This document shows, piece after piece, positions 5,959 to 20,097 of a DNA stretch of 40,600 nucleotides. The stretch lies in the IMG/VR virus record IMGVR_UViG_3300037071_001883, positions 1-40,600 of that record. The stretch is one strand, 5' to 3'. A model generated the notes under the pieces. It was given only the letters and a program-made list of their open reading frames with translations. It did not search any database and had not been told where the DNA came from. This DNA comes from a virus. The position numbers and the translations under genes are program-made. How positions within the stretch are numbered: the first letter of the stretch is position 1; the number at the start of each line of letters is the position of its first letter.

Positions 5959-6339
5959 CTAGTAGAGCCACGCAACCTGCGGAGGTTTGCTGGTATCCGC
6001 GTCCAGATGAACGAAGCCCTTGGCGATGCCGATACGCGAGATTCCCACGTTGAGAGCGGCTTGTAGGATAAGGAATCGTAGTCGAGACTCTCGACAGGCA
6101 ATATCGACTCCGAGGCCGTCTGTATGAGCTGACGAATCGACCCCACCGACCTCGGCATTGTGTTCATCGCTCCTCCACCCGCTCAGGACTATCAGGGGTC
6201 GGCCAATCGTCGAGCGGATCGAGTCCAGCTTGCTCACGATCTCCCATTGCATCTTCTCCGCTGCCGTCCCCAGTTGGTCGGGCGAGTCGAACTCGCTCGG
6301 GCGGAAGTGCTTGATCTGGCTCCATTCGGCTTTCGTCAT
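5959..6339 (-). CDS. Endolysin: M15-family peptidase (L-alanyl-D-glutamate / D-Ala-D-Ala type)
   Basis: A 126-residue zinc peptidase that would cut the peptide part of peptidoglycan at lysis. The M15 signature SxHxxGxxxD is present, with His72 and Asp79 (SAHTDGLGVD), and the third zinc ligand is His111 (FVHLDAD). The upstream GWRSDEHN is also typical. The N-terminus (HFRPSEFDSPD) matches the usual family start, and AAGGAGG sits just before ATG 6339, so the start is firm even though it lies inside the preceding ORF. There is no signal peptide, so a holin would be needed for release. Confidence 0.9.
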   Translation of the reverse strand: MTKAEWSQIKHFRPSEFDSPDQLGTAAEKMQWEIVSKLDSIRSTIGRPLIVLSGWRSDEHNAEVGGVDSSAHTDGLGVDIACRESRLRFLILQAALNVGISRIGIAKGFVHLDADTSKPPQVAWLY

Positions 6340-6916
6340 TTTGCGCCTCCTTGCGCTGTCTTGCTCTTATGTTCCCCTTGTCTCCGTTCCAGTCTCGGTA
6401 GTGCCATCCATGTTTTGCGATGTAGTCCTGCCGTGTGATGAAGGCGACAAACTTGGCGATTCGCTCTGCGGCTGGGAGTCTCCGGTTGAGAGAGCATGCA
6501 TCCCATAAAGCATCGAGTACGCTATATGCCTCAGAAAATGTGGTGACTGCTTCCAAGTTCCCAGCGCGTATGGCTCGCAACCTAGCTTGAAAAAACGCCA
6601 CAATTGCATCTCTCTCCCGCATGAACGTTTGAACCTCACGCTTCTCCTTCCAGTCGGCGGGCTTGAACTTCCTGAGCAGCCCCTCCTTGTAGAGGCCCTT
6701 TCGGATGTAATGCGGCAGGCACGCCTGGCCTTCCCAGACTGGATCACCGCAGAGGATGGTTCGAGCTCGGTCTAGGCAGAAGCGGCAAGTTGCGGGGACA
6801 GTTTCTCCATCTGGCCCCAGTTGGGTCCTATCTTCATATCTACGGGCACTCGGAATCCCGGCCCGATCTGTGGAAATTCTGTCTCTAGTACCTCGCGTAA
6901 GCCGCCAAGTAGGCAT
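6164..6916 (-). CDS. Hypothetical Cys-containing protein overlapping polymerase and endolysin
   Basis: An open frame of 250 codons from ATG 6916 that overlaps the polymerase 3' end by 145 nt and the endolysin 5' end by 176 nt. The central part (residues ~43-170) is protein-like: a CRFC...C...C cluster followed by a charged helical region with RERDAIVAFFQARLR. There is no ATG, GTG or TTG between the polymerase stop and the Cys cluster, so the true start is either ATG 6916 or a rare codon. The last ~60 residues are low-complexity and Pro/Asp-rich, as expected of double-coding sequence. Family not recognised. Confidence 0.6.
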   Translation of the reverse strand: MPTWRLTRGTRDRISTDRAGIPSARRYEDRTQLGPDGETVPATCRFCLDRARTILCGDPVWEGQACLPHYIRKGLYKEGLLRKFKPADWKEKREVQTFMRERDAIVAFFQARLRAIRAGNLEAVTTFSEAYSVLDALWDACSLNRRLPAAERIAKFVAFITRQDYIAKHGWHYRDWNGDKGNIRARQRKEAQNDESRMEPDQALPPERVRLARPTGDGSGEDAMGDREQAGLDPLDDWPTPDSPERVEER

Positions 6917-9021
6917 GGCGTGATTGCCTCCTTCGGGAACTCCATCAGGAACGAGTCATGCACCGTGGCAAGGATGGCCCCGCCATGTGCCGAGCAGAAC
7001 GAGTCTAGCGGAACGAGCCTGTCCCATACGATGTCTGCGGCGTTGGACTGGGGGAGGTAGTCGATCATCTGAGGGGCTGCCGAGTCACCGCCGTAGAAAT
7101 ACCGCCGACGACCGAAACTATTGACAAGATGTCGCGCTGCCAGCCCTTCGGAAACCACCTGCATGCGCCATCTCCAGAGACCCGGATATGCTTGGGCCAG
7201 GGCGTTTTGGAGAGCACGACATTCTTGTTCACTGGTTTCCACACCACGAGTCCTGAGAAGAATGGACAATTTGCGCGGTCCAGCCCCATAAAGGGATCCA
7301 TAGACCACGTTCTTCGCTCGCACACGATCACATCGAAGGAGTTCTTGGGTTCGAGCATGAACGTCACCTTTCAGGGCTTCGAGAAGTGCGCCATCATTCG
7401 AGAGCGTAGCTGCCACGCGAAGCTCAATTTGGCTGTAGTCTGATTCTACCAAACAAAACCCTGCTCTCGATGGAACGAATAGCAAGCGAGCTTCATTGGG
7501 TTGATTTTGTATGTTAGGGTCCGAAGATGCCAACCGTCCGGTCGCCGCGGCTCCAGAATCAGATTCCTTTCCTGCCGGAAGATAGTGCGGGTGGACACAG
7601 CCGTCGCCTCCTATCTCGACTTCGGAGTAGGTTCCCTTAAGTTTTGCAACCTTCTTAAAAGAAAGGAGAGTTCGGATTGCATCTCCAAGAGGTCCTGCTC
7701 CAACTCGTCCAGCGATCGCTTTGAGGGCGGATTCGTCGGTGGTGGGCTTTCCGCCCTTGGCGCGGTAGGGCGGTATGCCATTGTCGCGGTAGAGCCATTT
7801 CGCAATTTGGCTCGGGCTATTTGGATTAACCTGGGGTGCTTGGGCATTCCACTCCCTCATTAGGCGGTTAGACTCGCCAGCCAGCTCGATCTGCCACTGG
7901 GCGAGTCGGACTTTATCTACCTTCAGGCCCCGCTCCGTCATGCGGATCAAGACGGGCAAGGCGGGCATCATCGTTTCGTGGAAGAGGTTCGCTTGCCCCG
8001 TTTCTTGGAGGTGGACTTCTTCCGCTTCCGCGAGCTTCCAGGCGTAGAAGGCGTCTTTCGCGTTGTATTCCTCGGGCTTGTCATCGTTAGTATGCTTCCA
8101 TGCACTAAGGTCGAGGTATAGGGAGGCTGCGCGACCAAGACCCTTGTATAGATCAGGCTGGAGAAGGTGTGCCGCGACCATTGTATCGAAAATCTTCCTG
8201 CCTGCCCCCAGTCCCAGTCTAGGTCCTGCCAAGGATGGTATTTCTCTGGACAGATAGCGCAGATCAAATCCAAGATTGTGCCCCACGATTGTTCGACCGG
8301 ACTCAAATATCTCTGTAACACGCGCTGCGGCACGCCAATCCCACGGAGCCGTCCACGTGCAACGGCCGTCGGAAACGCCGATGCGCGAAATCGACTCCCC
8401 AACGGTTTCAATGTCGATGGCCACGGGGCCTTCATTGGATCCTAGTGCGACCGGGAAAGAGAGGAAAGAGCAGCCCGTAGGTCGAAACGAATCTGCAAGA
8501 GATCGTTGAACTCGCCCCAGATCAGCCTTGAGCGCAACAATGGTGCGTAGACCGGACTTCTGGACGGAGAGAGGATCAAGGCAAGGGATAATCCAACGGA
8601 CACTGGTAGGGAGGTCGGCACGGACTTCATGGGTTACCCATCCCCACTTGGGATCGCCAACTTTGCGAAGACTTCCGTCCTTGTTCTTTCCAGCAGTTTT
8701 GTACTCTCCAATGATGCTATGCGCCTTGCTCGCCACTGGCTGGCAATCTGAGTTAGTAAAGATGTACCCGCGCCCATCTTCGATAGGCAATTTGGATCCA
8801 GTGAGTCCACGGAAAGCCATTCCGCCCACACATACCACCGTGCAAATTCTTGTTCCATCATCCGATTCGTTCGAGGAAGAATATTGTCGTGTCTCACAGC
8901 AACTTCTTGGAAGACCCGCTTCGGCAGCGACAGCCCAGAATAGCTTATGCCCTGGGAAGGTTCCGTCTGGCGCGAGGTCATTGACAAGGACTAGGACTGA
9001 AGGCCCAGTGTGCGCAGAAAT
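6772..9021 (-). CDS. Family A DNA polymerase with N-terminal UDG-like domain and 3'-5' exonuclease
   Basis: The main replicative polymerase. From codon 9021-9019 it has 749 residues. Exonuclease motifs are AIDIETVG (Asp203, Glu205), GHNLGFD (Asp253) and YNAKDAF (Asp323). Polymerase motifs are SDYSQIELR (Asp528), RAKNVVYGSLYG (Lys570, Tyr574, as in T7) and VHDSF (Asp689), where the usual HDE is HDS. Residues ~10-170 resemble uracil-DNA glycosylases: VLVND near the start, VCVGGMAFRGLTG, a following RGYIF, and WIIPCLDPLSV where active enzymes have an HPS-type loop. The domain may therefore be inactive. The frame has no ATG, GTG or TTG before GTG 8838, which would delete a third of that domain; ATT 9021 has AAGGAGGT six bases upstream and is the preferred start. 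Confidence 0.85.
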   Translation of the reverse strand: MSAHTGPSVLVLVNDLAPDGTFPGHKLFWAVAAEAGLPRSCCETRQYSSSNESDDGTRICTVVCVGGMAFRGLTGSKLPIEDGRGYIFTNSDCQPVASKAHSIIGEYKTAGKNKDGSLRKVGDPKWGWVTHEVRADLPTSVRWIIPCLDPLSVQKSGLRTIVALKADLGRVQRSLADSFRPTGCSFLSFPVALGSNEGPVAIDIETVGESISRIGVSDGRCTWTAPWDWRAAARVTEIFESGRTIVGHNLGFDLRYLSREIPSLAGPRLGLGAGRKIFDTMVAAHLLQPDLYKGLGRAASLYLDLSAWKHTNDDKPEEYNAKDAFYAWKLAEAEEVHLQETGQANLFHETMMPALPVLIRMTERGLKVDKVRLAQWQIELAGESNRLMREWNAQAPQVNPNSPSQIAKWLYRDNGIPPYRAKGGKPTTDESALKAIAGRVGAGPLGDAIRTLLSFKKVAKLKGTYSEVEIGGDGCVHPHYLPAGKESDSGAAATGRLASSDPNIQNQPNEARLLFVPSRAGFCLVESDYSQIELRVAATLSNDGALLEALKGDVHARTQELLRCDRVRAKNVVYGSLYGAGPRKLSILLRTRGVETSEQECRALQNALAQAYPGLWRWRMQVVSEGLAARHLVNSFGRRRYFYGGDSAAPQMIDYLPQSNAADIVWDRLVPLDSFCSAHGGAILATVHDSFLMEFPKEAITPCLLGGLREVLETEFPQIGPGFRVPVDMKIGPNWGQMEKLSPQLAASA

Positions 9022-9287
9022 TGATCGACCTCCTTGTTGATCTCATCCCAACTCGTCGGTTTCGGGGCATGCTTCGAGACCTTGCGAAGCCTCTGGATTT
9101 CATCATAGAACGCCTTCAATCCCCGGCTCGCCCCCAGCCCAGCCATCTTCGCGCAATCCGCGCACATGCCAGAGGAGGTGAAGACGATCGGCGGCTTCGA
9201 GGCATCGCGGAATACGATGTCCGAGGTAGTCTCGGCCGCGACTACATTTCGCCTCTTGCAGTAGGAGCAGTTAATCCTTTCTTCCAT
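8991..9287 (-). CDS. Small zinc-finger protein
   Basis: A 98-residue protein with CSYC near the N-terminus and CADC at about residue 43, a CxxC...CxxC zinc-ribbon arrangement loosely like the ClpX zinc-binding domain. The C-terminal half is a charged helix (KAFYDEIQRLRKVSK). The start is ATG 9287, inside the end of the methyltransferase gene. Its 3' end carries AAGGAGG, which probably serves the polymerase, so the two genes are coupled. The function is unknown; replication-linked DNA binding is a guess from position. Confidence 0.7.
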   Translation of the reverse strand: MEERINCSYCKRRNVVAAETTSDIVFRDASKPPIVFTSSGMCADCAKMAGLGASRGLKAFYDEIQRLRKVSKHAPKPTSWDEINKEVDQFLRTLGLQS

Positions 9288-19068: not shown

Positions 19069-20097
19069 CTAGGTCTCTACTTCTGGGTGGTAGGAATTCT
19101 CTTCTTGGGCGAACGTCCATGCGACACTCGCCCTGGCGGTGTTAAGGCTCGGCGGCGTGCGGATCCAGTAATCCTTGTGGGTCCCATCTGGTTCTGGGGT
19201 CGAGTTGACTACCTTGACCATGTGCAGGGGCTCGTCATCTGGGATTTCCTTCCGGTACAGGATCCCCCAATCGTCCTTGTGAATCTCCACCGCTCCCGAG
19301 TCGATGAGGAATCGGGACTGGCCGTATTTCTCCATCATCACTCGGCGAACCTCGACGTTCTGCTCGGACTCGATCTCCTTGACGGTTATCTTGGCGGGTT
19401 CGAGGACGACATGCTCTGGTACTTCCACGCCGTGCACGAGGCAATATCCAAACCCGTCGGGGTAGAGAATAGCCCAGTCCGAGTCCGCATGGAGCCGACC
19501 CCTATCATCCAGCGAAAGCCTCTGTGGGCGTTCCGTAAGTATTGCCACAGAGTCATAAGCCCACCACCATCCGCAGGATTGTGCCACAAGGTTGAGCCCT
19601 TCAAGTTTCCGACACTCCTCAACGCCGCAGACTTGGGCGAAGAAATCGTAGAAGCACAAGATCGAGGCATCATGCTGCCCATAGGCCGCGTTATGCAGCT
19701 GGAGATCGGAGAGACAGGATATGACGAATTCACGGGTGATTCTCCTCTTCTTCAGGTCCGCCACGTTCGCGTTGAAGATTTCGATGAGGGGCATGCAAGA
19801 GTCAACCACGTCTAGGATCCGCTTGGGGTAGGTCGTTTTGGTGGTTCTACTCGCCCGAGGAGGACTAGCCCCTGCGGCTTCGGTGACTTTGGATATCACG
19901 GTATCTACGATGGCTCCCGCGAGCGGCGATCCCAGCCAGAAGATATGCTCGGGCGGGGCTAGTCCCGCGGCTTGGTAGGCTAGGGCGATGCCTTTCTCGG
20001 CGGTGGTTCGGTCCGCGGCCTGGGTCGCCAAGCCTATCTTCATCCATCGGTCGAGGAACTGGGGGAATTGGTCCTTCTGTGCTTGGGTTAGTTCCAA
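19069..20097 (-). CDS. DUF6745-like protein
   Basis: A 342-residue protein. The C-terminal half carries the marks of a family known from phages and actinobacterial or other genomes: WAILYPDGFGYCLVHGVEVPE, then VEVRRVMMEKYG, and a closing NSTPEPDGTHKDYWIR followed by a TARASVAWTF segment. I recall this as DUF6745. No biochemical role is established. The N-terminal half is helical and less conserved. It is one of the larger genes of the accessory stretch. Confidence 0.75.
   Translation of the reverse strand: MELTQAQKDQFPQFLDRWMKIGLATQAADRTTAEKGIALAYQAAGLAPPEHIFWLGSPLAGAIVDTVISKVTEAAGASPPRASRTTKTTYPKRILDVVDSCMPLIEIFNANVADLKKRRITREFVISCLSDLQLHNAAYGQHDASILCFYDFFAQVCGVEECRKLEGLNLVAQSCGWWWAYDSVAILTERPQRLSLDDRGRLHADSDWAILYPDGFGYCLVHGVEVPEHVVLEPAKITVKEIESEQNVEVRRVMMEKYGQSRFLIDSGAVEIHKDDWGILYRKEIPDDEPLHMVKVVNSTPEPDGTHKDYWIRTPPSLNTARASVAWTFAQEENSYHPEVET

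Follow-up and report, generated by a model that had tools for sequence, protein, structure and literature searches.

The window, by which we mean the whole 40,600-bp IMG/VR virus record on which all coordinates are given, carries on its minus strand a gene for a family A DNA polymerase that is preceded and overlapped by a small gene encoding a protein with two C-x2-C pairs (referred to here as the Cys4 protein; Table 1). The initial annotation had described the polymerase frame as open upstream of GTG 8838 as far as a TGA at 9045-9043, with no ATG, GTG or TTG in the added part. Both descriptions were exact: the frame runs uninterrupted from this TGA through GTG 8838 to 6772, and GTG 8838 is the first of these three codons within it. 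The encoded protein matched the polymerase profile PF00476 in Pfam over residues 373-736 with 156.8 bits (cut-off 34.3), and the exonuclease profile PF01612 scored under its own cut-off (19.8 versus 23.6). Polymerase motifs A, B and C (DYSQIELR, R...K......YG and VHD) and the exonuclease motifs D-x-E, N..FD and Y...D were all present in the alignment; judged by these residues, both sets of motifs are intact.

Table 1. Features of the polymerase locus (coordinates on the window).
Feature	Coordinates	Strand	Remarks
UDG-like domain + 3'-5' exonuclease + family A DNA polymerase	6772..9021	-	749 aa if read from ATT 9021
In-frame TGA	9043..9045	-	Upstream limit of the polymerase frame
Putative ATT start codon	9019..9021	-	Sole near-cognate codon in the stretch from the TGA to the first core strand; kept in L002
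AAGGAGGT Shine-Dalgarno	9028..9035	-	6-nt spacer (CGATCA) before ATT
UDG-like domain, about residues 1-181	8479..9021	-	A long beta-hairpin is inserted at about residues 93-133
UDG His loop remnant I-P-C-L-D-P, residues 145-150 (D149)	8572..8589	-	Family 4 enzymes have H-P-S/A/T; aligned with L029 FPTLHPT and L024 IPTVHPA
Exo I motif A-I-D-I-E-T (D203, E205)	8404..8421	-	Start of the 3'-5' exonuclease domain
Cys4 protein gene, 98 aa, C-x2-C ... C-x2-C	8991..9287	-	Overlaps the polymerase gene, read from ATT, by 31 nt at its 3' end

The polymerase gene is also overlapped at its other end. The downstream gene at 6164-6916 (minus strand) starts inside it at ATG 6916, giving a 145-nt overlap at 6772-6916; AAGGAGG lies 10 nt upstream of this gene, which in the related phage contig L002 starts with GTG at the same place. 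Within the overlap, the synonymous divergence of the polymerase relative to L002 falls from about 0.7 to 0.30-0.39, and because of this drop we consider both frames probably coding there. The product of the downstream gene had no Pfam or PHROG match. Elsewhere in the window, a gene at 19069-20097 (minus strand) gave a strong match (1.1e-65) to DUF6745, a domain of unknown function.

To judge the residues upstream of GTG 8838, we compared the polymerase with that of L002, which shares 64-67% identity with it across all 749 residues. Across codons 11-40, which the preceding gene does not overlap, the two phages differ at 8, 4 and 19 first, second and third codon positions, respectively (pS 0.72, pN 0.22). 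Neither of the remaining forward frames of this region showed a codon-position bias against L002, and both contained stops. This pattern indicates that the added residues are genuinely coding and that the frame is under protein-level selection. The extension is present in eight phage contigs beyond L002. Searches with DNA patterns found relatives at roughly 53, 48, 37, 37, 36, 32 and 30% identity, among them L008/L017 (53%), L018 (48%) and L019 (37%), and one more distant relative, L003/L024, stood at 26-30%; scans of viral contigs with other queries returned L002 again and nothing else, and searches of genome contigs found no relative. Seven of the eight (L017, L018, L020, L021, L024, L028 and L029) begin with ATG and one (L019) with GTG, and their proteins start at the first core strand of the N-terminal domain or some residues earlier. 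Since all of them start at or before the same strand, a full N-terminal domain is the rule among relatives.

These comparisons bear on the simplest alternative, in which translation truly begins at GTG 8838, leaving the residues upstream untranslated or rarely translated. GTG 8838 is a legitimate start codon, and it is the one that gene callers limited to ATG, GTG and TTG would pick. However, it has no Shine-Dalgarno sequence, the part that it would leave out shows the selection described above, and a start there would strip the domain of strands 1 and 2 and of helix 1 in the AlphaFold model. The initial annotation would have been overturned by relatives starting at the equivalent of GTG 8838, and we found none: in all nine relatives examined, the frame begins ahead of the first core strand. 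Because the full domain is the rule in relatives and no Shine-Dalgarno sequence precedes GTG 8838, a start at this codon is largely refuted and can be set aside for practical purposes; we regard it as the least credible of the readings considered here.

If translation begins further upstream, there is exactly one near-cognate start codon between the TGA and the first core strand, the ATT singled out in the initial annotation, and it does follow AAGGAGGT at the six-base distance reported there. L002 has the same arrangement at the same place, with TGA, the same 8-nt Shine-Dalgarno sequence, 6 nt and ATT, and the first canonical start in its open frame comes only at position 44. Since this independent contig shows the same arrangement, we rejected a sequencing error as the source of the missing canonical start. 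In a phylogenetic tree, the window and L002 form one clade (support 100/100) nested among relatives that start with ATG or GTG, so the ATT is a derived state. We infer initiation at this ATT from elimination together with its conservation in one close relative, which is how the proposal of an ATT start in the initial annotation is now supported.

The Shine-Dalgarno sequence contributes less to this argument than we had assumed. Among the window's starts that we examined, AAGGAGGT is the longest Shine-Dalgarno match, and we at first took it as decisive. It lies within the Cys4 gene, where it encodes Lys-Glu-Val. When the Cys4 gene was randomly recoded with synonymous codons, using the window's own codon usage, AAGGAGGT appeared in range in 42% of recodings, and in 15% it was accompanied by a correctly spaced start or near-start codon. 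We dropped the sequence as decisive evidence after this test: because synonymous recoding of the overlapping gene often yields AAGGAGGT, the motif may help the ATT to work but is not by itself proof of a start. The conservation of ATT in L002 is ambiguous for a related reason: the start nucleotides sit within another gene, and their conservation could stem, partly or wholly, from the Cys4 gene. RNA from the start region folded no more stably than shuffled sequences (z = +1.89), and we therefore claim no structured regulatory element.

A serious alternative is to read the same overlap as a site of programmed -1 frameshifting, by which ribosomes would pass from the Cys4 gene into the polymerase frame to make a Cys4-UDG-exonuclease-polymerase fusion, with AAGGAGGT as the stimulator. 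Shine-Dalgarno sequences stimulate -1 frameshifting in dnaX and IS911. The polymerase frame does lie at -1 relative to the Cys4 frame, and the overlap contains a Shine-Dalgarno-like sequence in the window and L002 alike. However, the 55-nt overlap contains no X XXY YYZ slippery heptamer, the polymerase of L008 has its own ATG and stands in a different register to its Cys4 gene, and L018 also uses an ATG of its own, with no Cys4 homologue detected on its short locus. Frameshifting is thus improbable, if slightly less so than a start at GTG 8838.

Considering that the putative start lies inside another gene, we examined what that gene demands of the start codon. The Cys4 gene adjoins the polymerase gene in the window, L002 and L008; none was detected on the short locus of L018 (L007), where the polymerase directly follows another gene. 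Its 98-residue product had no significant family match. Within the Cys4 gene, the Gln89 codon (CAA) contributes its last base to the ATT and the Phe90 codon (TTT) its first two; in L002, the counterpart of the Gln89 codon is TCA, encoding Ser. Any NTG at this site would require TGT in place of the Phe codon and so introduce a Cys; the Phe is shared by all three Cys4 proteins (window, L002 and L008). The use of ATT in place of ATG would then follow from the second and third positions of the start being the first two positions of a conserved Phe codon. Gene order is the same in L008, and there too the Cys4 gene overlaps the polymerase gene, but in a different register (mod 3 = 1 versus 2) and with an ordinary ATG. 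Constraint from the overlapping Cys4 gene is therefore probably the simplest reason for ATT, its causal role being our reading of the codons.

A further proposal, which would add to constraint by the overlap and does not contradict it, is that ATT is kept as regulation: the initiation factor IF3 rejects AUU, so polymerase output would be low or tied to host IF3. ATT is shared by two phages whose polymerases differ at about a third of residues. Repression of non-canonical starts by IF3 is documented for infC of E. coli (AUU) and sigR of Streptomyces (GUC) (PMC5472188), and coupled re-initiation in E. coli is sensitive to IF3 (PMC2268962). The likeness to infC and sigR lies in a protein-coding gene beginning at a non-canonical codon that IF3 rejects. 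These two, however, are cellular genes in which initiation was tested, whereas the window has a phage replication gene with a putative start and a codon bound by an overlapping gene. The open literature searched contained no match for AUU starts in phages or for a comparable phage polymerase, which is no proof of absence. Against a regulatory role, the overlap accounts for ATT without one. Relatives of the same architecture use ATG or GTG, so ATT is not an essential control of this type of polymerase. Control through ATT and IF3 is thus speculative, and we would give it a minor chance. We hold in the same low regard the broader idea that this lineage keeps ATT as an IF3-sensitive, overlap-coupled throttle together with a catalytically dead UDG that reads the template for the polymerase or supports its structure.

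We next consider the N-terminal domain itself, for which the initial annotation had proposed a uracil-DNA-glycosylase (UDG)-like fold with a changed HPS-type catalytic loop. Profile and sequence searches with the UDG part of the window alone returned nothing, and searches of Pfam, NCBIfam, PHROGs and PDB sequences matched no UDG domain in the window protein itself. AlphaFold, run for the N-terminal domain on an alignment of eight sequences, produced a model with a pLDDT of 81.5 and a pTM of 0.72. All 33 of its Foldseek matches in the PDB at E<=0.001 were family 4 UDGs or UdgX (E down to 1.1e-05, probability 1.00), and its best matches among viral models were UDGs and DNA polymerases, including phage polymerases. 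TM-scores to UDGs were moderate, at about 0.5, probably in part because of the long hairpin insert. The full-length model (pLDDT 85.2) found its best viral matches in phage polymerases of 800-1050 aa, which it matched over most of its own length. The homology is also visible through relatives that match the Pfam UDG profile: L029 (1.7e-23), L028 (4.5e-17), L024 (2.7e-17) and L019 (0.0012). The structure prediction, which could have failed to give a UDG fold, thus returned one, and with this chain of homology it assigns residues 1-180 to the family 4 UDG/UdgX fold.

The catalytic residues point to loss of function. Family 4 enzymes are marked by the motifs GE(A/G)PG and HP(S/A/T), neither of which is present in the window domain. 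L029, which is 36% identical to the window protein and has the same insert, keeps both in near-intact form (GMAPGKDE and FPTLHPT). At the motif sites, the window has VNDLAPDG and CLDPLS, and both the window and L002 lack the GExPG loop. In the alignment with L029, the catalytic His corresponds to the Asp of CLDPLS, in line with the changed loop noted in the initial annotation; the position reads LDP in the window, L002 and L028 and LSP, with Ser, in L017 and L018. Because the His and the GExPG loop are gone while L029 keeps them nearly intact, we conclude that the domain descends from a UDG and has decayed. Two relatives differ in other ways. In L028 (2850-3539, minus strand), the hairpin insert of the UDG-like domain contains a Cys4 zinc-ribbon-like piece (CAACGG...CRKCEG). 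In L003 (4113-7079, plus strand), where the UDG motifs are intact, the polymerase is encoded by two ORFs of 542 aa and 304 aa. About 420 bases separate them ahead of palm motif A, which may reflect an intron, a split gene or an error.

Could the domain still act as a uracil or modified-base glycosylase, or bind uracil-DNA ahead of the polymerase in the manner of UdgX? UdgX binds uracil-DNA, the UDG fold is present, and the clade member L029 retains GMAPGKDE and HPT. However, replacement of the His by Asp in the window and L002 and by Ser in L017 and L018, together with the missing GExPG loop, makes this unlikely, although it is less remote than frameshifting. Judged from its residues, uracil excision by the window domain is very unlikely. 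Our best guess is that the decayed UDG-like domain serves as a structural module or one that contacts DNA or the template.

A fusion of UDG, exonuclease and PolA has been described for gp205 of Pseudomonas phage PaBG and for 'Lupandier' jumbo phages (PMC7412058). The window protein has the PaBG-type order, with a UDG-like domain, exonuclease and polymerase in one chain. In contrast to these larger jumbo-phage proteins, it is encoded on a contig of about 40 kb, and it differs from them in its degenerate UDG, long hairpin insert and non-standard start. Family 4 UDGs and UdgX (PDB 1ui0, 4zby and 6ail; TIGR00758 and TIGR03914) have an alpha/beta fold in common with the window domain and are linked to it by homology via L029, L028 and L024, whereas the window domain has lost the His and GExPG loops, is fused to a polymerase and carries an insert of about 40 residues. 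Residues 9-78 of 9qhs_A, a 'putative DNA-directed DNA polymerase I' of 1142 aa, match the UDG domain of L029 (E=2.4e-05). This match suggests that 9qhs_A is a fused UDG-polymerase with a solved structure, although it is a weak sequence match to a relative and 9qhs_A is absent among the matches listed for the window protein. In the PDB, UdgX-type proteins go by 'Phage SPO1 DNA polymerase-related protein', a name suggesting that the link between UDGs and polymerases was recognised long ago. The fusion itself is therefore already known, and what is new is the decayed clade with its conserved, putative ATT start.

Taken together, we consider it likely that the polymerase is translated from ATT 9021, coupled to the Cys4 gene, with ATT forced by the overlap and with a UDG-like domain that no longer excises uracil. 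The gene would encode a 749-aa protein in which a family 4-type UDG-like domain (about residues 1-180) is followed by a 3'-5' exonuclease and a family A polymerase. Initiation would occur at the strong Shine-Dalgarno sequence in the terminal part of the Cys4 gene, and ribosomes on that gene may expose or re-use the start site by translational coupling. ATT would be used in place of ATG since an NTG would convert the conserved Phe of the Cys4 protein to Cys. The UDG-like domain, its catalytic residues lost, would serve the polymerase structurally or contact DNA or the template.

Standard gene callers, which consider ATG, GTG and TTG, would truncate this polymerase at GTG 8838 and lose the first strands of the domain core. 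Phage annotation may thus systematically miss conserved non-standard starts that overlapping genes impose. Moreover, the polymerase-fused UDGs form a graded series, from near-intact motifs in L029 to none in the window, which would allow the role of the fused domain to be tested.
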